A stretch of DNA of 64,000 nucleotides from Acidiluteibacter ferrifornacis (GCF_009909615.1 NZ_WWNE01000006.1:372001-436000), one strand, 5' to 3'. Numbered from the stretch's first letter, positions 36,091-52,778 are shown. Translations and numbers: made by a program. Notes: generated by a model not told the origin, from the letters alone.

Positions 36091-36098
36091 TACTTTTG
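36091..36098 (+). promoter_or_regulatory. Promoter -7 box for the nucleotidyltransferase-rSAM pair
   Basis: TACTTTTG fits TAnnTTTG. It contains the first in-frame TTG of the gene (36096), which therefore cannot be the start. Confidence 0.5.
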
Positions 36099-36131
36099 CA
36101 GTTAAAAGAAAACCTACTTTTAACCCCAGTT

Positions 36132-37034
36132 TTGAAAGCTTACAACCAACCCCACAGTTTGAACTTGTTAAAAACCATCGCGTATTTTGACATTTTTAAT
36201 CATCCGCTTAAGGATATTGAAATAAGCAATCTATTAGGTCTATCCTTACTTCAAACGCAATCATACCTATCAGACCTTGTTTCTAATGGACAATTGAATT
36301 GTACTGCGAACTATTACAGCCTGAGAAAAAGCATCGATACACAGATTCATGAACGAAAGCTAAAAGAAGAGGAGGCTAAGAAATACTTCAGAAAACTACC
36401 TGCTTATACAAAACTTATCAAATCCTTTCCTTTTGTAAGAGCAATATCAATTTCTGGATCCTTATCCAAAAATGTAATGCAGGAGGATGGAGACATTGAC
36501 TATTTTATAATTACTGCACCAGGTAGATTGTGGATTTGTAGAACTTTACTCATTCTTTTCAAGAAAGTGTTTTTATTAAATTCTAAGAAGTATTTCTGTG
36601 TGAATTATTTTGTGGATGAAGATAATTTGGAGATTATCGATAAAAACATTTTCACCGCTGTAGAAGTTAGTCATCTTTTACCAGTATATAACCTGCCTTT
36701 AATCGACTCCTTCAAAAAGAAGAACAAATGGACCGAAAGTTTTTTTCCTGGTTTTGAGAACCCAATAAAAACAAAGCAATTTGAAGGAAATGGAATAATT
36801 AAGACCACTATTGAAAGTATACTTAAAGGACGAATAGGAGACCGTCTTGACCTTTTTTTGATGCGAAATACTTACAAAAGATGGAGTAAAAAGTTCGAGC
36901 ATTTCGATGCCGACAAATTAGAACTAACTATGCGGTCAAATCGTGGGGTGTCCAAACATCATCCTAGGGATTTTCAAAACCGAGTACTGAAGGAATTTCA
37001 AGTTAGAATGAATCAACTCAATATTCAAGAATGA
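36132..37034 (+). CDS. Nucleotidyltransferase-fold protein with winged-helix start
   Basis: About 300 residues. The first about 70 (LKTIAYFDIFNHPLKDIEISNLLGL...) resemble a winged helix; a nucleotidyltransferase core follows with SGSLSKNVMQEDGDIDYFII, which holds the GS and DxD metal motifs. The C-terminal half is basic and unassigned. No in-frame ATG exists near the start; TTG 36132 is proposed, with TTG 36159 and 36165 as alternatives. Its last bases overlap the B12 radical SAM start (ATGA), so the two are translated together. It may adenylylate or otherwise mark a substrate or partner; this is inference. Confidence 0.65.
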   Translation: MKAYNQPHSLNLLKTIAYFDIFNHPLKDIEISNLLGLSLLQTQSYLSDLVSNGQLNCTANYYSLRKSIDTQIHERKLKEEEAKKYFRKLPAYTKLIKSFPFVRAISISGSLSKNVMQEDGDIDYFIITAPGRLWICRTLLILFKKVFLLNSKKYFCVNYFVDEDNLEIIDKNIFTAVEVSHLLPVYNLPLIDSFKKKNKWTESFFPGFENPIKTKQFEGNGIIKTTIESILKGRIGDRLDLFLMRNTYKRWSKKFEHFDADKLELTMRSNRGVSKHHPRDFQNRVLKEFQVRMNQLNIQE

Positions 37035-38449
37035 AAACACTATTTACACATAGTTATTTTCTCCGTTTCGATGAGAAACAGTGGAATCAAAGTAAACCCT
37101 ACCCTCCATTGGCGACCATACAAGCCGCGGCTCTGTTAAGAGAAAATGGACATGAAGTAAAGCTATTTGATACTAATTTTGTTGAAGATCCATTCGAGCT
37201 AGAATCCGCTTTAAATGAATTTCAACCTGAGATTCTAGTCATCTATGATGATGGATTTAATTATCTCACCAAAATGTGCTTAACCCGTATGCGTGAAGCT
37301 GCATTTGAAATGATTAAGCTATCTAAAGCTAAAGACCTAACTGTTATTGTATCTAGCAGTGACAGTACGGATCATTTTGAATCATACCTAAAAAAAGGAG
37401 CAGATGCAGTAATTTTAGGAGAAGCTGACGAAACATTACTACATATAATAACTGCACTTTCAACAAAAGAGTCCATTTATGGAATTGGAGGAATATCCTT
37501 CATAGAAAAGGGGGAAGTTCAAAAGAATCCAAAACGACCAATACTAACAGATTTAACCAGTTTACCTTTGCCTGCGTGGGATTTAGTTGATATTACTCCT
37601 TATCAAGAAGCATGGAGAAAACACGGGTATTTTTCCATCAATATAGCCACCACCCGCGGATGTCCATACAAATGCAATTGGTGCGCCAAACCAATTTATG
37701 GAAATCGATACAATAGCCGCTCACCACAACATGTAGTTGACGAAATAAAACTCATAAAATCCTATTTTAATTTTGATCACATCTGGTTTTGTGATGACAT
37801 TTTTGGGTTGAAACCTCAATGGGTTCAGGAGTTCAATCAAATTCTTTCTGGGGAGCAAATCCGTATCAAATACAAAATTCAGTCAAGGGCGGACCTTTTA
37901 TTAAAAGATGATACTATAAAAAGTCTGGCAGACTCGGGCTGTGATGAAGTATGGATAGGTGCAGAGAGTGGTTCGCAGAAAATACTGGATGCCATGGACA
38001 AAGGAACCAGCGTTCAACAAATTGAGGAAAGCACTGCCCTGATGAAAAAGCATGGTATCAAGCCTTGCTTCTTTTTGCAATTCGGTTACTTAGGAGAAGA
38101 ATGGAAAGACATTCAAGCTACTTTAAATATGTTGTTTACTCTGATGCCACATGACATTGGTGTTTCAGTTTCCTATCCATTACCCGGAACTAAGTTTTAT
38201 GATGTCGTGCAGTCTCAACTATCTGAAAAAGCAAATTGGACAGATTCTGATGAATTATTGATGATGTACAAAGGCACCTACTCTCCAGAGTTTTACAAGA
38301 AGCTACATCGATATTTACACAAGCGTTTTAGAGCGAAGCAGGCCATGAACAAAGTCAAAAAAGGGAATATAAAGGAGCTTTTGAAGTGGGTATATTTTAA
38401 ATCTGCTAGTCAATTGTTCTATATTCAAATGTCAGGTTTAAAGAAATAA
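37031..38449 (+). CDS. B12-binding radical SAM protein (first)
   Basis: The 472-residue protein has an N-terminal cobalamin-binding Rossmann-like domain (about 1-165, PYPPLATIQAAALLRENGHEV) and a radical SAM barrel with the iron-sulphur motif Cys211-x3-Cys215-x2-Cys218 (RGCPYKCNWC), then GAESGSQ. The usual DxHxxG cobalamin motif is missing (LFDTNF there), as in many class B members. Such enzymes methylate, cyclise or rearrange carbon centres. It closely resembles the third one (42155-43546): both have THxYF, PYPPL, NIxTxRGCPY and RSPxxVVDEI. The substrate is unknown. Confidence 0.88.
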   Translation: MKTLFTHSYFLRFDEKQWNQSKPYPPLATIQAAALLRENGHEVKLFDTNFVEDPFELESALNEFQPEILVIYDDGFNYLTKMCLTRMREAAFEMIKLSKAKDLTVIVSSSDSTDHFESYLKKGADAVILGEADETLLHIITALSTKESIYGIGGISFIEKGEVQKNPKRPILTDLTSLPLPAWDLVDITPYQEAWRKHGYFSINIATTRGCPYKCNWCAKPIYGNRYNSRSPQHVVDEIKLIKSYFNFDHIWFCDDIFGLKPQWVQEFNQILSGEQIRIKYKIQSRADLLLKDDTIKSLADSGCDEVWIGAESGSQKILDAMDKGTSVQQIEESTALMKKHGIKPCFFLQFGYLGEEWKDIQATLNMLFTLMPHDIGVSVSYPLPGTKFYDVVQSQLSEKANWTDSDELLMMYKGTYSPEFYKKLHRYLHKRFRAKQAMNKVKKGNIKELLKWVYFKSASQLFYIQMSGLKK

Positions 38450-38467
38450 AAGTTTTGTATTCAGTAA

Positions 38468-38809
38468 AAAAATCGCTCATACCTACAGCAAAACATATCA
38501 GTTACCTATTCGGTATTGGAAGAGGAAGAGAGTATCGACATAAGTGTAAAAAGGCAATTTGAAATTATCTTCCAAAAAATAATAGAAAGTATTATTCAAA
38601 AAACTTCGCTTGAAAATATAAAAGGCATTACCTACAAAAATGAATATCAATAATACATTAAACACCATAAAATCACAGCACAAAAATGACAATTTTAAAG
38701 TATAGATTTCCTAGATGTAACTTTTTTCACTTACAAAGACAAGGTTATAGAATTGACAAAAGGACTCATCGTTCAGAATAAAAAAAGTCTTTCATCGACT
38801 ATGATTTAA
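38468..38809 (+). pseudogene. Possible decayed coding fragments in a 356-bp gap
   Basis: The gap after the first rSAM gene holds three successive open stretches in three frames: 38468-38653 (61 codons, ending ENIKGITYKNEYQ), 38652-38705 (NTIKSQHKNDNFKV) and 38714-38809 (DVTFFTYKDKVIELTKGL). Each has protein-like composition but none has a start. The first weakly recalls the end of a B12-binding domain (compare SSVDGLAYK in the third rSAM protein). A frameshifted gene relic is plausible; chance is not excluded. Confidence 0.3.
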
Positions 38810-39498
38810 ATCGACTGTTCGTGATACATTCTAGTGGTTTTAATCTTGAAAATATAATTCCACTCACTCCATTTCCTTCGGCGTTCTACCTCTTCTAATA
38901 AAAATGCTTTTTCTTCTGCTATTACTCTAATTCTTTGAATATCGCAATCTTCCGAAAATATCATATATACTTCACTTCTTGAAGTAATAAAAGGAAAAAT
39001 GGAATTAAACAACCGAGTAAAATACTGGAATTCTGATCCGCAAAACCAAGCTTTTTCTGCATCGGTTTTGGGTTCTTTCGGATAATAGGGAGGATTAATT
39101 ACAATTACATCAAACTTTTGATTATCAAACGAATCAAATAAATCTGACTGAACCAGCTTTACGGTTACCTTATTCCTTTCCGCATTTTGTCTGGTATTTT
39201 CTATTGCCTTGGGATTGATATCAGAGGCAGTAACAATCGCACCTTCTTGTGCAGCAAACACACTAATAATACCAGTTCCACATCCTAGCTCTAAAAAGCT
39301 TTTACCTTCAATTTCTAGATTCTCTATAAAGTCTATTAACAATTTAGTACTAATAGTGAAAATGGGGTAAAAAACGCCCGGAAGCACAACTCCCTTTATT
39401 CCTTTATATGAAAATGGTCTTGGTTTACTAAAATAGTAAGTCGCAAAACGCTTCAAGAATGGAGAAAGAATTCTTTTTTTAAATCTATTACTCCCCAT
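38806..39498 (-). CDS. SAM methyltransferase with NPPY motif
   Basis: The 230-residue protein has a HemK/PrmC-like core: FLELGCGTGIISVFAA (SAM motif I), ASDINPKAIENT, then VIVINPPYYP, the NPPY motif of enzymes that methylate a planar nitrogen or an amide. The start is ATG 39498, overlapping the rSAM stop upstream by 11 bp; an earlier TTG at 39510 is less likely. It is the second gene of a two-gene unit with the B12 radical SAM gene. The acceptor is unknown; protein, nucleic acid and small-molecule targets all remain possible. Confidence 0.8.
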   Translation of the reverse strand: MGSNRFKKRILSPFLKRFATYYFSKPRPFSYKGIKGVVLPGVFYPIFTISTKLLIDFIENLEIEGKSFLELGCGTGIISVFAAQEGAIVTASDINPKAIENTRQNAERNKVTVKLVQSDLFDSFDNQKFDVIVINPPYYPKEPKTDAEKAWFCGSEFQYFTRLFNSIFPFITSRSEVYMIFSEDCDIQRIRVIAEEKAFLLEEVERRRKWSEWNYIFKIKTTRMYHEQSI

Positions 39499-41005
39499 AA
39501 AACCCTTCAATTTCAGGTTGACGGTACTTCCAGATTTTGTGCATGGCTTTAATCTCGTATGGAAACTTATAAAATCCTGTTTTATACCGCCAACTAGAGA
39601 GATTCACCAGTAATGATTTTTTAATTCCTTGAATTCTAAAATCAGAGGCTGTTGGGTGATACCCATTCAAAACGGTTTCAAAATTCTGAATCTTATCGAT
39701 CATCTTTGGAGTCAGCCAAGGTGTCAATGGGTTTTTACGCAGGTCAAAATTTTCCCAAACAGGATTTAGCCAATCTTCTAAATGCGTCGGAAATTCGAAG
39801 CCGGCTTTCGTAATTTGCTCATATAATTCAGAACCTTCAGTAGGCACCGGGCTATAGAGGTATATAATAATCTCTGTTTGTGGATTTAACTTTTTAATTT
39901 CTTTGATAAATTCAATATCTGAATCTATTTGAGCCATCACCTCATCTTCGCTTTCCCCAGGCATTCCTAGGACAAATGAGTATTCAGGAATTATTCCAAT
40001 ACGACCTAACCTAACTGCAAACGAACGAATTTGAGCAGCGGTTTGGGTTCCACCTTTATCCATCTGCTTCAACACCTCATCGCTACCGGTCTCAGCACCA
40101 AAAAAGATCATTTCACAACCGGCATCTTTCATCAATTTTAAATCTTCATCAGAATATTTATCAATGGTATCTATTCGTCCTTCGCCCCACCATTTAATAT
40201 TATCGTTCAGAACTAATTTCGAAAACTCAACGACTCTTTTTCTAGAAGTAAAGAAATTATTGTCATGAAATTCAATGGAATCTACTCCATAATTATCCTT
40301 GAGCCATTTTACATCCTTATAAATATTTTCGGCAGACTTCCCTTTCCAACGTGCATTATAAATTGGCACAACGGCACAAAACGAACAGGTAAATGGACAG
40401 CCCAAACTAGAATGATAAGCCATCGTTTTGTCACCAAGAAATGTCTTCTGTAAATACCCTTTAATAGGGTAAAAAGTGTTGAAATACTCATAAGGCAGTT
40501 GTGGCAAACTGTCTTGATCCAACAACTCTTCTTTTGGAGTTTTGAAGATTTTGTCGTCCTTAAGGAAGATTAAATTCTTTATCTTATCAATTGATTCTCC
40601 TTTTTCCAATGCATCCAATAACAGAGGAAATGATTGGTCGCCAGGGCCACTCACTACTACATCCACATATTTGCTCTGAAGCGCAACCGGATGCTGATTA
40701 GTGGCAAAATATCCACCCCAAATAACTTTTACATTAGGGAAGGCTTCTTTTACCTTTTTAGAGATAGGAATGGCTTGACGCAATTGAGGACCAGGCATAA
40801 CAGTGACACCAAAATATTTGAAGTCACCTGATTTTAGCAATGTCGAAATTGTTTCCCATGGATCTACTTCTTTATTTCCATCTACGAAGGCCACCCCATA
40901 TTTGCCATAAACAGATGCACCGACCTGCAAAATAGACATCGGAATGCGATGTTTCCATTTCGCACTTTTGGGGTTAAAAAGAATCACACTTGATTTCAAA
41001 TCCAT
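39488..41005 (-). CDS. B12-binding radical SAM protein (second)
   Basis: The 505-residue protein has a cobalamin-binding N-terminal domain (about 1-150; the loop reads FVDGNKEVDPW with no DxHxxG) and a radical SAM domain with Cys203-x3-Cys207-x2-Cys210 (LGCPFTCSFC), followed by GAETGSDE and YSPVPTEGSELY. It differs clearly from the other two. The ATG at 41005 is preferred because the upstream TTG (41020) is part of the -7 box TATTTTTG. The reaction is probably radical C-methylation or a related change; the substrate is unknown. Confidence 0.87.
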   Translation of the reverse strand: MDLKSSVILFNPKSAKWKHRIPMSILQVGASVYGKYGVAFVDGNKEVDPWETISTLLKSGDFKYFGVTVMPGPQLRQAIPISKKVKEAFPNVKVIWGGYFATNQHPVALQSKYVDVVVSGPGDQSFPLLLDALEKGESIDKIKNLIFLKDDKIFKTPKEELLDQDSLPQLPYEYFNTFYPIKGYLQKTFLGDKTMAYHSSLGCPFTCSFCAVVPIYNARWKGKSAENIYKDVKWLKDNYGVDSIEFHDNNFFTSRKRVVEFSKLVLNDNIKWWGEGRIDTIDKYSDEDLKLMKDAGCEMIFFGAETGSDEVLKQMDKGGTQTAAQIRSFAVRLGRIGIIPEYSFVLGMPGESEDEVMAQIDSDIEFIKEIKKLNPQTEIIIYLYSPVPTEGSELYEQITKAGFEFPTHLEDWLNPVWENFDLRKNPLTPWLTPKMIDKIQNFETVLNGYHPTASDFRIQGIKKSLLVNLSSWRYKTGFYKFPYEIKAMHKIWKYRQPEIEGFYGE

Positions 41006-41017
41006 GATATTAATTGC

Positions 41018-41025
41018 CAAAAATA
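41018..41025 (-). promoter_or_regulatory. Promoter -7 box for the second rSAM unit
   Basis: TATTTTTG on the minus strand fits TAnnTTTG; the ATG follows 12 bp later, so the leader is very short. Confidence 0.5.
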
Positions 41026-41083: not shown

Positions 41084-42190
41084 ATGAACTTAGTCAAAAA
41101 TCTTCTCTTTTCGTTACTATTCTTTCTATTCCTCCTTGCACTTTCGGAATTAATGTTAGTTTTCTTTTATTCCTATCCTAATGGATATTATGTTTCAACC
41201 CCTGAATCAAGTTTTGTATGGAAAAAAGACACCACAATTATTAAAGGGATAACCAAGGATGCTAAAGTACAATTTGATCAGTTTGGAGCAAGAACAATTT
41301 CAAAACCTACTTCTGAAAAAATAGCCATTTTAGCTATCGGCGGAAGCACAACTGCCTGCTACTCATTGGATCAACAAGATACCTGGACTGCTCTGTTGGA
41401 AGGTCAATTAGGAAATAATTATTGGGTAGGTAATTTTGGAAAACCGGGAAACCTCAGTAGCCATCATATTCTTCAGCTGCAGAAATTAATAAGGTATCCA
41501 TCCCTCCCTCCAATTGAAAAGATTATTATCATGATGGGTAAAAATGATTTCTCTGCCAGTATAATTGATGAAAAGAAATACTTGGGTTTAGACTCATTTA
41601 ACATCCAAATTAATGCTTTCACCCATCTTCCCGACAGCACTCTTCCATGGCACAGAAGGTTAAGATTGACTAAATTGTTTAAAACCGCACGACACCAAGT
41701 TATTCAATTGTATAGAGGTAAAACGCATGGTGAAGAATTACTAGAAAGTCGAAAGGCTAGAACACTCACCCAAGAAGTAAACCAACTACCCAATTTAAGT
41801 ACTTCTCTAAGTTTCTATCTTGATAATGCTCAAAAGATGATCGATTTTGCAAAAACTAATCAAATTGATATTGTATTTATCAGCCAAACTGTTTTATGGG
41901 ATAAAAATTTGAATCAGGAGGATCTGAAATTAATTTGCAGTAACGTAAGCGAAAAAAATATACATTACTCCGCAGAAGCTCTAGCAAATGGAATGAATTT
42001 GTTTAATACCCAACTTGAGGAATTGTGTAAGCGAAATGATATTCAATTCATCTGGAATTCCATAGAATCCAACTCGACTAATTTTATCGACGACTGTCAT
42101 TATACTGAACTAGGAGCTAAAAGGACCGCTAAAAATATATACGAAGGTCTTAAACTATCCAACCTGAAAAAAACTCATTCGAATCAATGA
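41084..42190 (+). CDS. SGNH/GDSL-type hydrolase, membrane-anchored
   Basis: The 368-residue protein has one N-terminal transmembrane segment (about 5-28) and a SGNH fold: block I AIGGSTTAC (nucleophile Ser), block III MMGKNDFSA (Gly-x-Asn-Asp) and block V DDCHYTELGAK (Asp-x-x-His). It probably removes or transfers acyl groups from a glycan or lipid outside the inner membrane. Its last 36 bp overlap the end of the convergent third rSAM gene. Its place among rSAM and export genes suggests that it edits the same product. Confidence 0.82.
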   Translation: MNLVKNLLFSLLFFLFLLALSELMLVFFYSYPNGYYVSTPESSFVWKKDTTIIKGITKDAKVQFDQFGARTISKPTSEKIAILAIGGSTTACYSLDQQDTWTALLEGQLGNNYWVGNFGKPGNLSSHHILQLQKLIRYPSLPPIEKIIIMMGKNDFSASIIDEKKYLGLDSFNIQINAFTHLPDSTLPWHRRLRLTKLFKTARHQVIQLYRGKTHGEELLESRKARTLTQEVNQLPNLSTSLSFYLDNAQKMIDFAKTNQIDIVFISQTVLWDKNLNQEDLKLICSNVSEKNIHYSAEALANGMNLFNTQLEELCKRNDIQFIWNSIESNSTNFIDDCHYTELGAKRTAKNIYEGLKLSNLKKTHSNQ

Positions 42191-43546
42191 AACGAAGGCC
42201 TTTAGCTTAACTATAAATGCATTGATAGTTAAGTGTTTATCGGCATTTTTTAATTTTTCATAATTAACCTCATTTACAATCCTTCTTACAGCAAAGTCAT
42301 AATACCTTCTAGGAAAAGTACGCTTGAAATCAATCTGTCTATCCGTACTTGTTGACCATTCTGGTTGAACAATGATATCTTTTTCAATTTGAGTGTACAA
42401 TCCAGTGCCTTTAATCGGATATGCTACAGTTATTGTAAACTGGTTGGGATTGGCCTTTTTGAGATAATCAATCGTCAATTCAATATCAGTCTTGGTTTCA
42501 GTTGGGTATCCTACCATGATAAAAGTACCGGCCTCCATTCCAAACTTTTGGGTCAGAAGCATCATATCACTAACCTTATTAATATCTACTTGTCTTTTCA
42601 TTAAGTCGATAATTCGCTGTGAACCACTTTCAGCTCCTATCCAAATTCGGAAACAACCTGCTGCTTTTAATTGTACCAAAACCTTTTCATTCATTCGTTC
42701 AGCTCTGGTGATACATTCAAAAGGAATCTTTAAATTTCTATTTTGCATCTCCCTTGAGAATTCTTCCAGCCATTTATGACTTACTGTAAAAACATCATCA
42801 ACAAACCACAATGCATCTGGATTGTAATTCTTAATCAAGTACTCTATTTCATCCACCACCAACTTTGGACTACGCCTTCTATAACTTTGTCCATAAACTG
42901 CTGTGCTACACCATTGGCAAGTGTATGGACAGCCTCTTTGAGTAGAGATATTTAGGGTGCTTTTTCCATGATATTTTTTCCACGTCTCAAGGTATTTTGT
43001 CAAGTCGATTTTCTTCCGATTAGGCATCGACAACTGATCCACTTCTTTTATTTTAGTTCTAGGAGGGTTCTTTATGAATTCATTGGTGGCAGACTTATAC
43101 GCCAATCCATCTACCGAACTAAAATCTTGCTGTCCGAAAAACTGCTTCGAAAATTCTAAAAATGTCTCTTCTCCTTCTCCAATCACCAAAAAATCAGCGC
43201 CATATTTCAAATAATTCTCCCAATTATAGGTCACATCTGGCCCACCCAATAATATTTTAGTCTCACTTAATTCTGGCGTATTATTTACCCTTTTGATGAG
43301 TTTCAAAATCTTTACTTTAGTCATCAAATTGGTGTAAATCGCGATTAACTTTGGCTTTAGACTCAATACATTATTGAACCATAATTCTTGATTAGAAAAA
43401 GTAGAATCTATCAACTCGTGACCCACCCCATTTTCTTCTAAATAGGCAGATATGTAGAGCAACCCCAAAGGCGGATATGGACGCATAATTTTTTGCTCCG
43501 TCTCATCTTCTTCTAAAAAATACCCATGGGTTAATAAAATACTCAT
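42155..43546 (-). CDS. B12-binding radical SAM protein (third)
   Basis: The 463-residue protein is a close relative of the first rSAM protein: cobalamin-binding domain 1-165 with PYPPLGLLYISAYLEENG, GADFLVIGEGEETF and no DxHxxG (LIDSTF instead), then a radical SAM barrel with Cys206-x3-Cys210-x2-Cys213 (RGCPYTCQWC) and GAESGSQR. It ends the five-gene minus-strand operon; its start overlaps the methyltransferase stop by 4 bp (ATGA), and its end overlaps the SGNH gene by 36 bp. The substrate is unknown. Confidence 0.88.
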   Translation of the reverse strand: MSILLTHGYFLEEDETEQKIMRPYPPLGLLYISAYLEENGVGHELIDSTFSNQELWFNNVLSLKPKLIAIYTNLMTKVKILKLIKRVNNTPELSETKILLGGPDVTYNWENYLKYGADFLVIGEGEETFLEFSKQFFGQQDFSSVDGLAYKSATNEFIKNPPRTKIKEVDQLSMPNRKKIDLTKYLETWKKYHGKSTLNISTQRGCPYTCQWCSTAVYGQSYRRRSPKLVVDEIEYLIKNYNPDALWFVDDVFTVSHKWLEEFSREMQNRNLKIPFECITRAERMNEKVLVQLKAAGCFRIWIGAESGSQRIIDLMKRQVDINKVSDMMLLTQKFGMEAGTFIMVGYPTETKTDIELTIDYLKKANPNQFTITVAYPIKGTGLYTQIEKDIIVQPEWSTSTDRQIDFKRTFPRRYYDFAVRRIVNEVNYEKLKNADKHLTINAFIVKLKAFVSLIRMSFFQVG

Positions 43547-44337
43547 TTGCGTTTTGCTATTATAAGGTAATGATCGGAACTTTTGGCTAAAAAACTAAAA
43601 CTTCCAAAAATACGTTCTAAAAAGTTGAGAAAGCGAAGAACACCAATTCTACGTTTAAAAAATGACTCTAAATAAGATGGTGGTATGAAAAAAGCAACGG
43701 GCTTAATAAGTTCCACTTGGTAATCATTGGACAACAATTGTTTTACTGTGGAAGGAGAATGATAAAACGTTTTAACTTTTTCTCCATTCACATCAACTTC
43801 TAAATAACCTTTTTTACTTCTTCTATTAATTTTTGAGAACTTCCCTTTAAAGAGAAAGTAAAAATCCTCAATCAAACAATATTCAGGCATAATGACCATT
43901 GCCAAATAATTACCCACTTTTTGCTTCAATGCCAAGTCATAAAAAAAGGTTCTCAACTCTTTTTCACTTAAACAATTCAATCCACCAAAGTTAGAAAATA
44001 CTATATCCGCATCTCCGACATTTTCATCGATAGAAATATCTTGGAAGTTTCTCTGGTAAAAGTTAATTCTTGGATTCCGTTTTGATTGGGCAACTTTAAC
44101 CATTTCTGAAGAGGCATCTGTTGCAATAACTTCAAACTCTTTATTGAAAAACCATTCTGCATCGTATCCTGTCCCGCAATTAATCTCAAAAACTCTTTTA
44201 GAATTATTTAAAATCTTGCTTTCTTTCAGCCAATGAAACACTCTATTTCGTTGTTTTTTGCCTATTTCTGACAATGTAAAATCATTATCGTAGGTGGCTG
44301 CTGCAGCATCAAAAGACTCATTATTCGGGCTATACAT
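43543..44337 (-). CDS. Class I SAM-dependent methyltransferase
   Basis: The 264-residue protein starts MYSPNNESFDAAAATYDNDF and shows VFEINCGTGYDAEWF (SAM motif I), ATDASSEMVKVAQ and ADIVFSNFGGLNCL, as in small-molecule methyltransferases of the UbiE/SmtA type. The C-terminal part is basic with FLNFLERIFG. ATG 44337 lies 4 bp after the SPASM gene stop; 18 residues further upstream would overlap that gene and read as its shadow. It is fourth in the 47768-42155 operon, so it probably acts on the product made by its rSAM neighbours. Confidence 0.83.
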   Translation of the reverse strand: MYSPNNESFDAAAATYDNDFTLSEIGKKQRNRVFHWLKESKILNNSKRVFEINCGTGYDAEWFFNKEFEVIATDASSEMVKVAQSKRNPRINFYQRNFQDISIDENVGDADIVFSNFGGLNCLSEKELRTFFYDLALKQKVGNYLAMVIMPEYCLIEDFYFLFKGKFSKINRRSKKGYLEVDVNGEKVKTFYHSPSTVKQLLSNDYQVELIKPVAFFIPPSYLESFFKRRIGVLRFLNFLERIFGSFSFLAKSSDHYLIIAKRK

Positions 44338-44341
44338 AGAA

Positions 44342-45421
44342 TTAAAAGGCGCTACAACAACGATTACAAGCAGGCAACAATCCACCAGCATTTACAAGTG
44401 CTTTTCTAAAGTCACCATAATGTTTTGAATTCCATATTTCAGGAAGTGTATTCTCATAAAGATTTCCCATTGTAGAATTATAGCATCTCCCATGTGAGGG
44501 TATTACTGTTCCGTCCGTTTTTACCATTAAATTAGTAAACACATCGTTACATGTCTTCCCTAATTTCACTTCCGGTTTATAATAGTAGGTCATCAACTTT
44601 TCAATATCATTAATATCAGGCGAAAAACTAGGCTTAAACGAATACTCCTTAGCTTTTATCTTTTGGATCTGCTGATGTAAAATATGCATATCAAAAACAG
44701 AGAAATCTGTTTCTTCAATATTTGAATGTGTTGCACTGTATAATTGTCCATAAACTGCATTATGCCCTTCTGCAACATCTTTTGTAATAAAATTTTGGTG
44801 CATAAATCCTATATGCTTTATTGGTTTATTCGCAAAAAAGTCTACAAACTCAACAAGTTCTTTATAATTCCATTCAGTAATTACACAATAAATTGAAATT
44901 TCAGGTGAATTTTCAAATTGAGAAATATACTCAATACCCTCCAAAGCCTTCTGGAAAGATTTACTATTCCCTCGAATATAATTATGAGTGTCTTGAAGTC
45001 CATCGAGAGAAATATACAATTCCTTAACCTTCCCTTCTAGAATATCGTCCGCTTTACGACGAAGATTCAAAGCATTAGTTGTAATGGTAGTATCTAAGCC
45101 CTTTTCATTCGCATATAATAAGGATTCCTTCAAATGAGGGTAAACTAATGGCTCCGTAAAAGCATACCCTAGTTTAGCATTAGGATAATATTCAGAAGTT
45201 TGATCAATCAGGCGTTTAATTAAGTCTAACGGCATATTTAGAGGGTGGGAACCGACTAAATTTTGTGCAAAATTTGTCTCTAGATTTTGAGTCCCTACAT
45301 CGCACATTTTACAATGAAGATTACAGACATTATTAACACCCAACACTATCCACTTTGGATTTTGAACAATATACTTCGGATAAAATTTAGCATTAATTGC
45401 TCTTAATTTTTCATTTATCAT
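44342..45421 (-). CDS. Radical SAM/SPASM domain protein
   Basis: The 359-residue protein has the iron-sulphur motif Cys33-x3-Cys37-x2-Cys40 (NVCNLHCKMCDVG) near the N-terminus and a C-terminal SPASM/twitch region with Cys in GKTCND, GRCYN and ACNRCCSAF and the typical MGNLYENTLPEIW. SPASM proteins often modify peptides or sugars, and in glycan clusters related ones act as dehydrogenases or epimerases. No short precursor-peptide gene was seen next to it. It starts in a 4-bp overlap with the flippase gene (ATGA). Confidence 0.88.
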   Translation of the reverse strand: MINEKLRAINAKFYPKYIVQNPKWIVLGVNNVCNLHCKMCDVGTQNLETNFAQNLVGSHPLNMPLDLIKRLIDQTSEYYPNAKLGYAFTEPLVYPHLKESLLYANEKGLDTTITTNALNLRRKADDILEGKVKELYISLDGLQDTHNYIRGNSKSFQKALEGIEYISQFENSPEISIYCVITEWNYKELVEFVDFFANKPIKHIGFMHQNFITKDVAEGHNAVYGQLYSATHSNIEETDFSVFDMHILHQQIQKIKAKEYSFKPSFSPDINDIEKLMTYYYKPEVKLGKTCNDVFTNLMVKTDGTVIPSHGRCYNSTMGNLYENTLPEIWNSKHYGDFRKALVNAGGLLPACNRCCSAF

Positions 45422-46602
45422 GTTTCGATAATTATTTTTTTAGCGTCTTTAACCACTAATACTGCCATCAAACTCTTGCTAATTATCCCACTTATTAAAG
45501 CACCTAATATCCCAAAAAATGGTATTAAAACGATTGAAAGAATGACACTTGCTATTATTGCGAGAACATTGAATTTTAATAATCGATTCTCCAATCTATG
45601 TTTCAAAAGTAATTGACTTTCGATAAGATAAATATACAAGAGAAACACATAAACATAAAACAGAACTATATACCAATAATCTAAGTGTATTTTATAGAAT
45701 AAATCTAACCCAAGAAAGAGTAAAATCGAGAAAACAAAAGATATTAGCATCCCTAACAAACGATATTTCTTCTTGAGTTCACCGATATTAGTTTGTTTCC
45801 ATCGATACAAGTTTTTTTGAAAAGGACCCAATATAATCCATGAGATAGTTTGACCAAGCACTAAGAAGCTAATCATTACTTGATATTCTGCTAATTTTAT
45901 ATCGTCTAAAAAAAAAGTGGCTGTATAAAGATCTCCTTTCATTTGAAGTAAAGCAGTAAAGGAAATTGCGAAAAGCGGAAAGGTGGATTTTAAGTTACTT
46001 TTCAATCTATTCCTATTAATCTTGAGTAATCTTATGGTGCTGAGCAAAGGAGACAACACTAATAATCGGACAATTGATGACAACATAAAAGCAAAAATAA
46101 CTTCACTAATTTTTATGGAAGGATATTGTATCAATAAGTAACCAACAGCAGCAACCATGGCTAACATTTCTGCAAGTATAGAGTGCCAATAGTGTCTATT
46201 ATACTTAATCAAAGACTCAAAAAGATTCGCCAACCACTTAAAAATCAACCACAAAAACAAACTCCAAAAATAGGCTCTAAAATTAGGCCAGACGAAAAGA
46301 ACTAACGTGGCAACTATCAACAAAGGTATTCTAGCCATTAACGTGGTTGAAAGTAAACTCGATATACGCTGAGGTTGCAATGAAAATTCACGCATCAAAT
46401 AAGCCCTTTGACCCCAATTAAGAAACATCGTAATTATTTCTATTGCTAATAGAAAATAAACAAATTGCCCCCACAAGTCCTTACTTATCAATCGAATTAC
46501 CAATAATGAAATAAGACTAGTATGAATTGGTCTTACAGCAAAATTCAACCCTTCAAGTCCAATAAACTTGGTTCGTTTAATGGTTTTAGCCGTCTTATTC
46601 AA
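45418..46602 (-). CDS. Oligosaccharide flippase-like membrane protein (MATE/MVF fold)
   Basis: The 394-residue, strongly hydrophobic protein has about 11-12 transmembrane segments and the look of a Wzx-like flippase (GLEGLNFAVRPIHTSLISLLVIR near the start, GILGALISGIISKSLMAVLVVKDAKK at the end). It likely moves a lipid-linked product across the inner membrane. The start is a TTG overlapping the upstream stop (TTGA), and its own stop overlaps the SPASM start (ATGA). Its position between a secreted lipoprotein and the radical SAM genes ties that operon to the making of an exported compound. Confidence 0.75.
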   Translation of the reverse strand: MNKTAKTIKRTKFIGLEGLNFAVRPIHTSLISLLVIRLISKDLWGQFVYFLLAIEIITMFLNWGQRAYLMREFSLQPQRISSLLSTTLMARIPLLIVATLVLFVWPNFRAYFWSLFLWLIFKWLANLFESLIKYNRHYWHSILAEMLAMVAAVGYLLIQYPSIKISEVIFAFMLSSIVRLLVLSPLLSTIRLLKINRNRLKSNLKSTFPLFAISFTALLQMKGDLYTATFFLDDIKLAEYQVMISFLVLGQTISWIILGPFQKNLYRWKQTNIGELKKKYRLLGMLISFVFSILLFLGLDLFYKIHLDYWYIVLFYVYVFLLYIYLIESQLLLKHRLENRLLKFNVLAIIASVILSIVLIPFFGILGALISGIISKSLMAVLVVKDAKKIIIET

Positions 46603-47768
46603 GGTAGTAGATCGATTTCAAATGGCACAGTTTCTCTTGCACTCGCTGCTCCAGGAAGTACTTCGTATGGAGAATAAGCTTGAATCTGTTCTCTATAATA
46701 TAAATCCCCAAATTCAGGAAATTCATGATGTGTATGCGTTGGAGTATTTTTTAAAACAGACTCCACTTGTTGAATACTCATATTCCATTCATTAGCCAGT
46801 CGTTTAGCTGATGGTTCGAAATACCGAATATATAACTTTTCGGTTTCAGAATGTGCTATTTTGTCATTAAAGTTAATTTCTGAATCTAATAAACTTCTGT
46901 AATTTTCTAGCTCTTGAATATTCACACTTACAATACTATCAAACTGATTAGGAGAATAGTACCCTGGAATTACTGTTAGCGCCGCAAATCCTTTTTGTAT
47001 ATTGGTTTCATGACACCATAAACATTTGGCGGGTTTTCCGGCTATTGTCAAACTAGCATCAGAACCGCCTATTAACTCTTTTTGCTTGTTGTAGATTCCA
47101 AAACGAAGTTGTCCATTAGCCATTATATCCATTACCTCATTTTCCTCTACCATTTCTGAAGAATCTTTTAATGAACCCGACAATTCTTCCGCCCAATATT
47201 TCAATCGAGCTACATCTTTAGTCGATAGAGGCATGTTGATCACTCTTTCTTTAATAGCCACAGCTGATTCAACTATAGCAGCTCGCTTCGACAAAAAGTT
47301 GGCATTTTGAGTAAATTCGTCCAATGTCTTTGGCATTCCGACTATCTTATAATAATGATTGGAATTATTGAGGATGCAAGTAATAAATCTGCCAGCATCT
47401 ATTCCGCCCGTTTCCAAATATTCTTCACTCAAAATAAATTGCTGAATCAATAAATAAAGTTGGAGTGTGGCATTTTGAGAAAAGCCCAATTTTGAAAAGT
47501 TGACACTAACTAATTTATCATTTCGCCAAACCACACTCTTTTCCCATGACCCACTCTTAAGCTCAGCACCTAAATATGAAAAAGCCCATTTTAATCCAGT
47601 TTCAAACTCTTCCCTTGTTTCGTTATCGTTTTGATAATAATGCAAATCGATAGCAGAAGAGTTTGGAAAAACGGATTTGGAATCAGAAGAGTCCTCTTTT
47701 TTACAAGAGTACATCAATAAACCTGCAAAAAGGAGGATACTTAAATACTTACATATCGAACGAGTCAT
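46599..47768 (-). CDS. Lipoprotein with one CxxCH haem-binding motif
   Basis: The 389-residue lipoprotein has lipobox MYSC near residue 22 and a long domain of mixed helix and strand I do not recognise. About two-thirds in lies CLWCHET, a CxxCH motif that in an exported protein suggests a covalently bound c-type haem; a matching distal Met is not obvious. The ATG at 47768 directly opens the signal peptide MTRSICKYLSILLFAG; an earlier TTG (47780) is unlikely. It heads the five-gene operon and overlaps the flippase start by 4 bp. Confidence 0.7.
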   Translation of the reverse strand: MTRSICKYLSILLFAGLLMYSCKKEDSSDSKSVFPNSSAIDLHYYQNDNETREEFETGLKWAFSYLGAELKSGSWEKSVVWRNDKLVSVNFSKLGFSQNATLQLYLLIQQFILSEEYLETGGIDAGRFITCILNNSNHYYKIVGMPKTLDEFTQNANFLSKRAAIVESAVAIKERVINMPLSTKDVARLKYWAEELSGSLKDSSEMVEENEVMDIMANGQLRFGIYNKQKELIGGSDASLTIAGKPAKCLWCHETNIQKGFAALTVIPGYYSPNQFDSIVSVNIQELENYRSLLDSEINFNDKIAHSETEKLYIRYFEPSAKRLANEWNMSIQQVESVLKNTPTHTHHEFPEFGDLYYREQIQAYSPYEVLPGAASARETVPFEIDLLP

Positions 47769-47930
47769 TTTATTTTTCAAGAAATACTTTTGGATTGATT
47801 GAGGTTTAATCGGTTAGTTTTATTTCTAGCTATTTTTCTATAGCTTCAAAATTAGGGATTTAATCCTATTTAAAATAAAGCCCTTAACTAAATGTAATTC
47901 AAGTAACAAAGATTAACCGAATAGAAGTTC

Positions 47931-47987: not shown

Positions 47988-49604
47988 ATGAAATACCTAA
48001 GTAGGATAAAAAGTCTTCTAACAGAATACTCTATTGGATATTTAATCCCTACTATCGTCATGGGGTTCTATTTTTCCTTACTGTCCTTAAACCAACCGTT
48101 ACATGACTTTGCCAACAATTATTTTCCAGCATTATTGGCAGTAGAAAACATCTCTCCAGAAACTGTACTATTTGACATTTTTGAATTTAACCAATACGCA
48201 TGGAGCAAAGGTTATGAAAGCGTTATTGCCGACTTTTATTTAAACTCTCCTTTTACCTCCACCCTATTTTATCCATTTGCGTGGATTAAGAATGCTTATT
48301 ATTCCAAACTCCTTTTCAATCTAATCAGTGTTTTGTTTTTCACAATGAGTCTTCAATTATTCAGTAAAAAATACTTGAGTAATAACAATCGCTTTCTACT
48401 GCTCACCATTCCTTTTCTTTTCTTTATTCCGATTAGAAACAACATTGAGTTTGGCCAAGTATACATTCTCCTAATATCTCTTATACTATTAGGTTATTAC
48501 TACATCGATTCCAATAAAAAAATAGCAGGAGAGTTATTTTTAAGCTTATCTATTCTCATTAAGGTATTTCCCCTCATTTATTGCATTCCACTACTAATAA
48601 GTAAAAAATGGAAGTCGATAATAACCATTTTCATATGCACTTTGATTTTATTATCCATCTCAATTCCAATAAGTGGATCATCATTTTGGAGCAGCTATCT
48701 ATTCGAAGTCATGCCTAATGCGATAAACAACGAGAGTACAGTCAACTTCCAATCCAATTCACAATCGTTCACAGTTTTTTTAAAAACCTTATTTGTTCAT
48801 GATTCCTATTACAATCCTGAAGCTCTGTTCGATAGTCCAACTTTATATCGTCTATTATCTTGGTTGTTCAGTGCTTTTTTTATTTCAATAGCTATTACTA
48901 CTAGCTTTCAGTACAGAAAGCAACAGTTTCGTCTTTTATCAATTTGGATTGTTGTCTTGTTTTTAATTCAATCTAGAACGGCGACCTACGCTCAAATTCT
49001 TTGGTTGATTCCAGCCTTCGAAATTTTTCGAGGTCAATTTTCTAAAATTTCAAAAATAACTGCATTTTTACTGTTACTTTTAATTTGCAACTCTCCATTT
49101 CATTGGATGTCAGAACTTCCACTATTTTTTAAATTTACTAGAATGTGGCTGAGTATAGCATTTGGCTTAATGCTTTTAATCCAATTTAAGGTCCGTTTAG
49201 ATCATATGTTATTAAAAGTTTTCTTACTCATTTTTATACCATTTCTCATTCTCCTTTTAACTAAAAAACAAAACATTGAAGAGTCTGATTATGTATTATC
49301 AAAAAAGGAATACTTTTTAATCCATAATTTTTACGCTAAGGATAATCATTTAGTTTATGAAGCCATTGGAAAGAATGGAAATGAAATTGTACATTCCAAT
49401 ATACCAATTGAAAAATTTGACACTTCTGCCTGCAAAATCGAAGAAGGACAAATTATGTACGGAAACCAAAAATTAACAGATAGTTATTCAATCAAGAAAA
49501 AACCAATATTGGTTAATGATAATCTTATTTACTACCTCACTGACCACCACTCTAGACGCGGAGCATACACCCTTAGACAAATAGCAATTCCCCAAAAAAA
49601 ATGA
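47988..49604 (+). CDS. GT87-type membrane glycosyltransferase (DUF2029)
   Basis: The 538-residue protein has about ten transmembrane segments with a GT-C layout. An early periplasmic loop holds HDFANNYFPALLA, and the core GQVYILLISLILLGYY...LSLSILIKVFPLIY is typical of the GT87/DUF2029 family, which transfers mannose or other sugars from polyprenyl-phosphate donors outside the inner membrane. A non-hydrophobic tail of about 110 residues (430-538) follows. Its stop overlaps the sulfotransferase-like gene (ATGA). Confidence 0.75.
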   Translation: MKYLSRIKSLLTEYSIGYLIPTIVMGFYFSLLSLNQPLHDFANNYFPALLAVENISPETVLFDIFEFNQYAWSKGYESVIADFYLNSPFTSTLFYPFAWIKNAYYSKLLFNLISVLFFTMSLQLFSKKYLSNNNRFLLLTIPFLFFIPIRNNIEFGQVYILLISLILLGYYYIDSNKKIAGELFLSLSILIKVFPLIYCIPLLISKKWKSIITIFICTLILLSISIPISGSSFWSSYLFEVMPNAINNESTVNFQSNSQSFTVFLKTLFVHDSYYNPEALFDSPTLYRLLSWLFSAFFISIAITTSFQYRKQQFRLLSIWIVVLFLIQSRTATYAQILWLIPAFEIFRGQFSKISKITAFLLLLLICNSPFHWMSELPLFFKFTRMWLSIAFGLMLLIQFKVRLDHMLLKVFLLIFIPFLILLLTKKQNIEESDYVLSKKEYFLIHNFYAKDNHLVYEAIGKNGNEIVHSNIPIEKFDTSACKIEEGQIMYGNQKLTDSYSIKKKPILVNDNLIYYLTDHHSRRGAYTLRQIAIPQKK

Positions 49605-50422
49605 AAGCCTTCATCAGATACCATACAGTAGATGTGCTTAAGTTGTTTTTCTTAAAAGTTAACTTCATACTCTCTAAAAAACACCCCATATTGGTTTATA
49701 CCATGGCAAAAGTAGGGTCAATGAGTGTTTATTTTTCAATCCGAAAACAAACCAACTATTCTTGTTTTCATATCCACACATTAAACTTAGAAGAAGAGCT
49801 TCATAATCAAGAGATCTGCTTAACAAATGGCTTAATTCCTGACAGCAGAACCCCTATACATTTCATACAGCGCAAAATTTTAAAACCAAAAAAGGTTGTG
49901 AAGTTCATTACCTTATACAGAAACCCAATAGATAGAAACATTTCGGCCTTTTTTGATGCATTTGAGTTGTATGTCGGCACATCTATCGAAAACTATAAAG
50001 GGGAAATTGAACAATTAATTCAAATTTATCATGAAAAAATGCCTCACAACTATGCAGTTGAGTGGTTTAATCAAGTTTTTGAGAGAGATTTAGGCATCAA
50101 TATATATGACTACGATTTTAATCCAGAGATTGGTTTTCAAACACTAGTGAAAGACAATTATATGATTTTAGTGTTGAGTAGTGCTTTAGACAATTCTGTA
50201 AAAGGAGAACAGATTGGCCAGTTTATCAATCAACAACCTTTTTATATAACCGATGTAAATGTAACAGCAAGCAAGTACAAGGCAAAACTTTACAACGAGT
50301 TCAAATCAACTATAAAATTCAGTCAATCCTATTTAGATACTTTACTTCAATCTTCCTACAGTCAACACTTTTTCACAAATGAAGAAATTGAGGCGAGTTA
50401 TAAAAGGTGGTTAGAAATCTAG
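49601..50422 (+). CDS. Sulfotransferase-like protein
   Basis: The 273-residue protein has the two PAPS-binding marks of sulfotransferases: an early strand-loop VYTMAKVGSMSVYFSI for the 5'-phosphosulfate, and LYRNPIDRNISAFFDAF with the Arg and Ser of the 3'-phosphate site. Related proteins appear in capsule clusters as putative capsular synthesis proteins. It is cotranscribed with the GT87-like gene, so it may sulfate the sugar product. It ends 16 bp from the convergent Wzz-like gene. Confidence 0.7.
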   Translation: MKAFIRYHTVDVLKLFFLKVNFILSKKHPILVYTMAKVGSMSVYFSIRKQTNYSCFHIHTLNLEEELHNQEICLTNGLIPDSRTPIHFIQRKILKPKKVVKFITLYRNPIDRNISAFFDAFELYVGTSIENYKGEIEQLIQIYHEKMPHNYAVEWFNQVFERDLGINIYDYDFNPEIGFQTLVKDNYMILVLSSALDNSVKGEQIGQFINQQPFYITDVNVTASKYKAKLYNEFKSTIKFSQSYLDTLLQSSYSQHFFTNEEIEASYKRWLEI

Positions 50423-50438: not shown

Positions 50439-51290
50439 TTAGCTTTTTGAATACTTAATCATCCCTATCAGGACACCTAAAGCAAAACTAATGCTCATAA
50501 AAATGGACTTCTTAGGAAAGCTCGGTTTGCGAAAAACCGTAAAATCTTTAGCAACCTGAATCATCACTAAATTTTCAAGGCTTGCTTTTAATTGAAGTTG
50601 CTCATTGAACAATTTATATCCTTCCTGATACATGTCAATTGGATTCAGAGGCTCACCAAATACAAAGCCGCCGGCTTGCCCCTTGGGTAGCTGATTATTT
50701 GCAACAACCAATCTCAAGCTATCCAATTCTTGAATATCAGTATCTAACTTTTTAATTAATTGATTATAACGGTCTCTTCTAACGCCCATTTGTCGTTGGT
50801 AAAAATCTACGTCTGACAAATAGCTCACAATTTGAGGTTGAAGAATTTCAAACAAACTATTGTCGGACACCTTGACCTCTACCTTAAAAAAGAAATTCAG
50901 ATTTATTGAATCTATGGGATACTCTTTAATTTCAATATAACGGATTTCATTTATCTTTTCTATCACGTCAATTGGCAACACTAATTTTTCGCTTAATAAG
51001 CTGAAGTTATCTTCCTCGATTAAAAAATCCAAATCATTTATCTTCTCTCGATGAAACTCGTTAGAAATCCCTCCTGACATGGCAGTAAAGGTTGACTTAT
51101 ATTCCTTTGGAATAATAAAAGTAAGTGCTAATCCAACAAGTGAAAAGGCCAATCCAAATGCTAGAAGTTTCCATTTTATTCTAAAACCATATTGAATAAA
51201 CACACTTATTTTGGCAAAAAACTTTCTTGTTCCTTTTACAAATGAATTGACTAACGGCCCTAAATCAATTTCTTCATTATTATTGCTCAT
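50439..51290 (-). CDS. Wzz-like polysaccharide co-polymerase/chain-length protein
   Basis: The 283-residue protein has two membrane helices, about 40-62 and 262-279, around a periplasmic domain with coiled-coil character (RRDRYNQLIKKLDTDIQELDS). This is the polysaccharide co-polymerase layout; the C-terminal Pro-rich FRKPSFPKKS just before the second helix is typical. It lacks a cytoplasmic kinase domain. It would set polymer length together with a Wzy polymerase such as the divergent gene next door. Confidence 0.75.
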   Translation of the reverse strand: MSNNNEEIDLGPLVNSFVKGTRKFFAKISVFIQYGFRIKWKLLAFGLAFSLVGLALTFIIPKEYKSTFTAMSGGISNEFHREKINDLDFLIEEDNFSLLSEKLVLPIDVIEKINEIRYIEIKEYPIDSINLNFFFKVEVKVSDNSLFEILQPQIVSYLSDVDFYQRQMGVRRDRYNQLIKKLDTDIQELDSLRLVVANNQLPKGQAGGFVFGEPLNPIDMYQEGYKLFNEQLQLKASLENLVMIQVAKDFTVFRKPSFPKKSIFMSISFALGVLIGMIKYSKS

Positions 51291-51518: not shown

Positions 51519-52778
51519 ATGGCAAACGACACTATTCTCCAGTCTTTTAAAATTAATAAAGTACTGCTTATCGCAATACTTTATTTCTTTTTCAATAGTG
51601 TTTTTTTGCCGCACGGATTACTTTACACAACCCTATTAGCTCCTATTCTATTTCTTTCATTTTCGTATAGAGGTCAAATAAAATTCATAGAATTCATTGC
51701 AATTGCACTTATTCCATACTCAGGAATTCATTTTTTCATTGTTCCAGATCTTAAGTCATTAGCGATTTCTACAGCTTTATTGATCTTAAACTTGGTTTTC
51801 ATTGCCGCATTCTATGACTATTTGAAGAAAAAGCGAGACTTAACGTACCAATATTATAAAATTACCATCATTAATTTTATTTTCTTTATTGCTGCCCTGC
51901 TGCTTTTTTTTACTCCTTGGAAAGAAGTTTTCTGGCATATAAAACCATTAACAAGAAACATTGATGACTTTTCTAGATTAAGTTTTTTAACCTATGAACC
52001 TTCCTACTACTCTACTTTACTCGCGCCTATTTTTCTATTCTATATGCTCAAAGTTGTCCTTTTTAGGGATCAGCAAAAAAAGACTTTTCCTCTGCTAGTA
52101 TTTACAGGTCTTCCGCTTGTATTTTCATTCTCTTTTGGAGTGATTGGCGGAATCATTATCGCTTTCATAGTTTTAATTTTATTCTACAATAAACATATAC
52201 TTAAGAAAAGGCTATTCTTCTACTTCTTTAGTACTTCTATATTTCTAATTATTCTTGGGCTTGTTGTATTGTCAATACTATATCCTGAAAATGTAGTTTT
52301 CCAAAGAGTCAGTGATATTTTTACTGGAGAAGATACATCGGCTAAGGGAAGGACTTTAGGTGCGTTCAAAATGGCCTATCTAATTGCTAAAGAAAAAAGC
52401 ATTTTATTTGGAGCTGGACTTGGGCAAATCAAAATTGTAGGTGAAGATATTATTCGAAACTATTACCATTACAATGTTGCAGATATTCCGACTTTGAGAA
52501 TTCCTTCGTCTATTGGTGAAACTCTTGCTTCATTTGGAGTGGTAGGTGTATTAGTAAGGTTAGGGCTTCAATTTTATTTTTTCCTGAAAACAAAAACATA
52601 CAACAACTTTTACCGTTTTTTTATTTTTGTCTATATATTTATCTATCAATTCACTGGAAGTTACCTTACCAATATAGCAGAATATGTATTATGGGTTATT
52701 GCATTTACCCCAGCGTTTGTGCAATTTGATGTTTTCAACAAGCAAGCAACCCAGTCCCAAGAAAAAGAAACTATTTAA
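51519..52778 (+). CDS. O-antigen polymerase/ligase-like membrane protein
   Basis: The 419-residue protein has about eleven hydrophobic segments. The large periplasmic loop carries FTGEDTSAKGRTLGAFKMAYLI and FGAGLGQI, matching the Wzy/WaaL pattern (GR...W..A......LFGxGxG). It likely polymerises or ligates lipid-linked repeats. It lies alone on the plus strand between the Wzz-like gene and the minus-strand operon, and its last 4 bp overlap the end of the Wzi-like gene. Confidence 0.75.
   Translation: MANDTILQSFKINKVLLIAILYFFFNSVFLPHGLLYTTLLAPILFLSFSYRGQIKFIEFIAIALIPYSGIHFFIVPDLKSLAISTALLILNLVFIAAFYDYLKKKRDLTYQYYKITIINFIFFIAALLLFFTPWKEVFWHIKPLTRNIDDFSRLSFLTYEPSYYSTLLAPIFLFYMLKVVLFRDQQKKTFPLLVFTGLPLVFSFSFGVIGGIIIAFIVLILFYNKHILKKRLFFYFFSTSIFLIILGLVVLSILYPENVVFQRVSDIFTGEDTSAKGRTLGAFKMAYLIAKEKSILFGAGLGQIKIVGEDIIRNYYHYNVADIPTLRIPSSIGETLASFGVVGVLVRLGLQFYFFLKTKTYNNFYRFFIFVYIFIYQFTGSYLTNIAEYVLWVIAFTPAFVQFDVFNKQATQSQEKETI

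Follow-up and report, generated by a model that had tools for sequence, protein, structure and literature searches.

The five-gene operon of Acidiluteibacter ferrifornacis is a rearranged piece of a larger Bacteroidia gene set that probably serves a cell-surface sugar polymer

The five genes between positions 42155 and 47768 of the window (the 64,000-nt stretch of Acidiluteibacter ferrifornacis DNA analyzed here; GCF_009909615.1, NZ_WWNE01000006.1:372001-436000) belong to a larger gene set found again in many Bacteroidia, of which they form one rearranged part; the probable task of the whole set is to assemble, export and complete an unusual surface polysaccharide. The full set consists of rSAM1, rSAM2, rSAM3, MT, MTS and NTase together with GT87, Wzx and LIPO. 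Its members and neighbours, numbered in the window, are the following:

36096..37034, plus strand: NTase, nucleotidyltransferase-fold protein, mostly directly before rSAM1
37031..38449, plus strand: rSAM1, B12-binding radical SAM enzyme, paralogue of rSAM3 (about 33%)
38806..39495, minus strand: MTS, small methyltransferase (PF05175), mostly adjoining rSAM2
39488..41020, minus strand: rSAM2, B12-binding radical SAM enzyme, the most conserved module member (56-80% identity)
41084..42190, plus strand: GDSL/SGNH protein (PF13472), a module member in this family, syntenic in L007 and L008
42155..43546, minus strand: rSAM3, B12-binding radical SAM enzyme (PF02310 and PF04055)
43543..44337, minus strand: MT, SAM-dependent class I methyltransferase (PF13649), mostly between rSAM1 and rSAM3
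44342..45421, minus strand: SPASM radical SAM enzyme (PF04055 and PF13186), CxxxCxxC intact
45418..46602, minus strand: Wzx-type MOP-fold flippase (Foldseek to WzxE and MurJ; weak Polysacc_synt)
46599..47768, minus strand: LIPO, exported lipoprotein with a lipobox ending SC and one c-type haem motif, of no known family
47010..47024, minus strand: CxxCH (KCLWCHE) haem c attachment motif of LIPO, invariant in 19/19 homologues
47988..49604, plus strand: GT87 membrane glycosyltransferase (PF09594, 5e-22), divergent neighbour of LIPO
49601..50422, plus strand: sulfotransferase-like capsule protein (NKWYS; PF10364, 3e-20), whose homologue adjoins LIPO in L028
51519..52778, plus strand: Wzy-like polymerase/ligase (PF04932, 1.2e-6, under the curated cut-off), with homologues near rSAM2 in L009, L085 and L086

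The five genes run head to tail on the minus strand from 47768 to 42155, in the order LIPO, flippase, SPASM enzyme, MT and rSAM3. The gene calls bear out the tight spacing described in the first-pass annotation: 4-bp overlaps join LIPO to the flippase (TTGA, 46599-46602), the flippase to the SPASM enzyme (ATGA, 45418-45421) and MT to rSAM3 (ATGA, 43543-43546), and the MT start codon (ATG at 44337) lies 4 bp past the SPASM stop. LIPO starts with an ATG at 47768, the longest frame beginning at a TTG at 47780, and is separated from the divergent GT87 gene by a gap of ~200 bp, while the 3' end of rSAM3 overlaps the convergent GDSL gene by a 36-bp tail. Pfam agrees with the proposed Radical_SAM plus SPASM, methyltransferase (Methyltransf_25) and B12-binding plus Radical_SAM identities. 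What the annotation omitted is that conservation extends past the five genes: the group to which they belong spans 36096 to about 52778 and lies within a large polysaccharide locus.

The exact five-gene order was found only in two MAGs that belong to another genus of the same family (L007 from G036 and L008 from G033). The five genes are therefore not a natural unit, and the idea that their order is conserved and travels as such was rejected. In a genome of a different family (G353, locus L030), LIPO, flippase and SPASM genes are kept and followed by rSAM2 and MTS, with rSAM3-MT-rSAM1 about 5 kb upstream; at the loci other than these three the pieces are shuffled. The search for the same order thus gave a divided answer: the order stays within the family, whereas the gene set recurs in unrelated families, in support of the earlier claim that the genes belong to one system. 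Given the narrow range of the exact order and the shuffling elsewhere, the order itself is probably young; the gene set is widespread. The larger unit reads rSAM2-MTS-NTase-rSAM1-MT-rSAM3 and often forms one operon; this core is a single operon in L029, L034, L095, L097, L099 and L082, and is reversed in L078, L096 and L104. G656, found in the phylum draw, carries LIPO-rSAM3-MT-rSAM1-NTase. The SPASM enzyme is an accessory, with orthologues near the module in 8 genomes.

Co-occurrence was analyzed in a sample of 395 Bacteroidia genomes, 38 of which carry rSAM2 (orthologues at E<=1e-150). rSAM1 is present in 37 of these 38, versus 2 of 33 controls. The LIPO family occurs in 17 of the 395 genomes and is accompanied by rSAM2 in 15 (Fisher p 4e-15, phylogeny ignored); in one of the two exceptions rSAM2 is cut at a contig end (L041), and the other genome is 71% complete. 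With three further genomes, LIPO is found in 20 sampled genomes from nine families, all of which carry both rSAM1 and rSAM3. These 20 are among 33 genomes with rSAM3, versus 0 of 11 that have rSAM1 without rSAM3 (p 3e-4, phylogeny ignored). Pairwise distances covary beyond those of rpoB for rSAM2 and rSAM3 (partial r 0.70, p 2e-4, 12 genomes) and for LIPO and rSAM3 (partial r 0.41, p 0.01, 12 genomes), these rpoB-controlled p values being the only ones that allow for phylogeny. The nested occurrence of the core, then rSAM3, then LIPO suggests successive tailoring steps.

The B12-binding domain and a CxxxCxxC radical SAM domain are present in rSAM1, rSAM2 and rSAM3; against a curated cut-off of 32.1 for the B12-binding domain, rSAM3 scores 52.5 bits, and rSAM1 (22 bits) and rSAM2 (31.6 bits) fall under it. 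The SPASM enzyme exceeds the curated Pfam cut-offs, with 64.8 bits for Radical_SAM and 38 bits for SPASM. The best NCBIfam models for rSAM1-3, HpnJ and BchE, score 121-155 bits, and the HpnJ, BchE and TIGR04072 equivalogs are matched with 56-155 bits, far under their cut-offs of 360-578. Since none of the three enzymes reaches a curated family cut-off, methylation by them is not established. The best PDB sequence match of each is AprD4 (6fd2; E 3e-18 to 4e-10), which, like gentamicin GenK (PMC4039129), is a B12-dependent radical SAM enzyme of sugars or small molecules. The B12-binding plus Radical_SAM architecture is common to all, but the module enzymes differ from AprD4 and GenK in scoring far under the family cut-offs, in having several paralogues per operon and in their glycan-export partners. 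Among plasmid-borne and annotated sequences rSAM2 has only distant relatives, the 15 matches listed being 21-27% identical. The host genome encodes a B12-dependent methionine synthase.

In the NTase, PF01909 is detected at E 8e-4 in the L034 orthologue, and a GS...DxD pattern is conserved in 27 sequences. The protein is conserved in 26 sampled genomes, has no NCBIfam family and, judged by eye, possibly has a winged-helix-like N-terminus. Two more B12-radical SAM genes flank GT87 just upstream of LIPO in L007 (5903-10013) and L030 (10609-14830), one of them HpnJ-like; with the SPASM enzyme, this amounts to six radical SAM enzymes per locus. One of the relatives' additional genes, rSAM4, lacks an orthologue in the window genome.

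The flippase has no significant Pfam match (Polysacc_synt at E 0.016). Its AlphaFold2 model (pLDDT 88, pTM 0.86) was compared by Foldseek and matches WzxE with TM 0.65-0.72 and MurJ with E 5e-6, which identifies the protein, as modeled, as a MOP-fold, Wzx-like flippase and gives substance to the membrane exporter proposed earlier. Flipping of an undecaprenyl-linked glycan is predicted for it.

LIPO has about 390 amino acids and a single CxxCH. Across 19 aligned homologues, which share 28-55% of their residues with the window protein, the CxWCHE core never varies and the surrounding stretch, AGKPAKCLWCHE, hardly does; an invariant motif of this kind is not due to chance. The host genome also encodes cytochrome c assembly genes, and attachment of haem c, raised as a possibility in the first-pass annotation, is likely as judged from the sequence. 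A putative lipobox is found in the window protein and in several homologues, not in all. No Pfam match was obtained for the 19 members searched, and a sequence and profile search of the PDB returned no relative. The AlphaFold2 model, which the annotation had proposed as a check, is confident (pLDDT 86.3, pTM 0.82) and has no PDB fold match at E<=0.001, the best being E 0.14 with TM 0.14. LIPO thus shares with c-type cytochromes the conserved CxxCH in an exported protein, but differs from NapB and the like in having one haem motif in about 390 residues, no family match beyond this motif and no PDB fold match. Placement in a known cytochrome family was rejected on the Pfam, PDB profile and fold results; the match to NapB, at 0.18, covers little beyond the haem motif. 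No close relatives of LIPO were found among plasmid-borne or annotated sequences, the search beyond Bacteroidota being a plasmid search and a pattern scan, of which the latter detects close relatives only.

The surroundings of these genes are those of a polysaccharide locus. GT87 lies near LIPO in 16 of 21 loci and a flippase in 13 of 21; O-antigen-ligase (Wzy_C) and GT4 genes recur around the module, arylsulfotransferase genes less often, and the rSAM core operon repeatedly adjoins GT87, Wzx, Wzy_C and glycosyltransferase genes. The window locus holds the NKWYS sulfotransferase, the Wzy-like protein, a sugar transferase, asparagine-synthase-like proteins and a GT4 enzyme, and is followed beyond the window by Wzc, Wza and a second Wzx. 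Wzx, Wzy, Wzz/Wzc, Wza and glycosyltransferases are thus found together, as in a Wzx/Wzy-type locus, with the Wzy-like protein at 51519 under the cut-off and the Wzz-like protein at 50439 lacking a Pfam match. These surroundings point to a polysaccharide of the Wzx/Wzy type and not to a free lipid. Because the second Wzx is encoded with Wzc and Wza in the same locus, the Wzx of the operon probably serves a product of its own.

The best explanation, to which we assign about even chances, is that the five genes supply the inner-membrane and finishing steps of a glycan-tailoring pathway of Bacteroidia. Gene content, gene junctions, conserved co-occurrence, the polysaccharide context, the predicted flippase fold and the invariant haem motif are what the analysis shows; the substrate, the chemistry, the order of steps and the haem enzymology are inferred. 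In the cytoplasm, rSAM1-3 together with MT, MTS, NTase and, here, the SPASM enzyme would act by radical chemistry on a carrier-bound sugar or glycan block, the carrier being a nucleotide or a polyprenyl; the reaction could be C-methylation, deoxygenation or rearrangement. The dedicated Wzx would then flip the lipid-linked product, and on the periplasmic side GT87 would add a sugar from a polyprenyl-phosphate donor. Wzy-type polymerization and the Wza/Wzc-type export machinery of the same locus would come next. LIPO, as a predicted c-haem protein, would act last, in the periplasm or at the surface, and catalyze a redox step on the glycan that GT87 has elongated and rSAM3 modified. Two observations count against this pathway: 13 genomes with rSAM3 are without LIPO, and in roughly half of the genomes with LIPO its gene lies away from the rSAM block. 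A bolder proposal is held more tentatively, as possible but rather doubtful, and has two parts: that LIPO is the founding example of a new fold family, made up of exported c-haem enzymes performing redox chemistry on the growing or finished surface glycan, and that the rSAM1-3 module makes a radical-tailored sugar new to bacterial polysaccharides.

A protein like LIPO, with one haem motif only and, in the window and several homologues, a putative lipobox, could be an electron-transfer or sensor cytochrome that, for example, provides or removes electrons at the cell surface, instead of a glycan enzyme. We consider this unlikely: polar residues far beyond the haem motif are conserved (E215, N222, E258, H310, E314, R363, R382 and E383, along with Y121, Y143, R179 and Y317), a pattern more in keeping with an enzyme and its active site than with a protein that only carries electrons, and LIPO is tightly linked to GT87 and rSAM3, not to respiratory genes. 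Similarly improbable is a role in lipid modification, in which the target would be a membrane or carrier lipid, either one resembling hopanoids or ladderanes or the polyprenyl carrier; the flippase would then export the modified glycolipid, and the polysaccharide genes would be mere neighbours. HpnJ, HpnR and the ladderane model TIGR04072 are indeed among the better NCBIfam matches, and the additional rSAM5 encoded in L007 aligns with HpnJ almost end to end, at 163 bits. All the matches are nonetheless far under the equivalog cut-offs, BchE scores equally high, and no hopanoid, chlorophyll or ladderane genes were seen in the context. Of the families counted, none of the recurrent ones is for lipid synthesis; the recurring partners are GT87, GT4, Wzy_C, Wzx and, at several loci, sulfotransferases.

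SPASM and B12-binding radical SAM enzymes frequently modify peptides, and weak matches to ApyD and other RiPP families were obtained, as would be expected if these enzymes acted on an exported precursor peptide. This is by far the least probable of the readings. The overlapping operon leaves no space for a precursor gene, none was seen there or in the gap at 38450-38805, the one examined, which holds only short, uninformative frames, and no leader-binding domain was found; moreover, the exporter is a Wzx protein and the SPASM enzyme, near the module in just those 8 genomes, is dispensable.

The glycan-tailoring pathway resembles Bacteroidota Wzx/Wzy pathways in combining a Wzx-fold flippase, a Wzy-like polymerase, GT4 and GT87 enzymes and Wza/Wzc genes in one locus, and departs from them in a tailoring set that comprises three B12-binding radical SAM enzymes, two methyltransferases, an NTase and a predicted exported haem protein. 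Wzx/Wzy assembly is well known; as far as we found, neither the tailoring set nor the haem protein was known in it before, and no published description of such a module was found in literature of partial coverage, in line with the earlier statement that no described pathway with this gene order was known. To our knowledge, there are hardly any known cases of carbon-centred radical chemistry on polysaccharides of the cell surface, and we know of no exported haem enzyme as an established glycan-tailoring step. The rSAM2 marker is present in about a tenth of the sampled Bacteroidia, with two or three B12-binding radical SAM enzymes per module. If the pathway is correct, it would be a substantial and so far overlooked use of vitamin B12 from which new sugars and enzymes could be drawn, with testable gene sets in many genera.

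Several further features of the polysaccharide loci were observed. The second Wzx-type flippase (L117:5971-7323; Polysacc_synt 1.8e-11) means that two flippases serve the region. The same locus encodes two asparagine-synthase-like amidotransferases (59890-61758 and L117:2276-4204), a 708-residue fusion of a zinc alcohol dehydrogenase with a GFO/IDH/MocA oxidoreductase (57763-59889), and a 533-residue outer-membrane-like protein without Pfam match (52775-54376). The Wzz-like protein extends over 50439-51290, and a homologue in L009 adjoins a Wzy homologue. ASST genes lie inside the module in L029 (10765-12105), L009 (13017-14384) and L101, two of the three next to or near LIPO, a hint that the product of those strains is phenolic or sulfated. 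In L029, a 620-residue protein (7728-9590) is a fusion of two parts, one resembling a Wzx flippase and the other a methyltransferase of the FkbM type.
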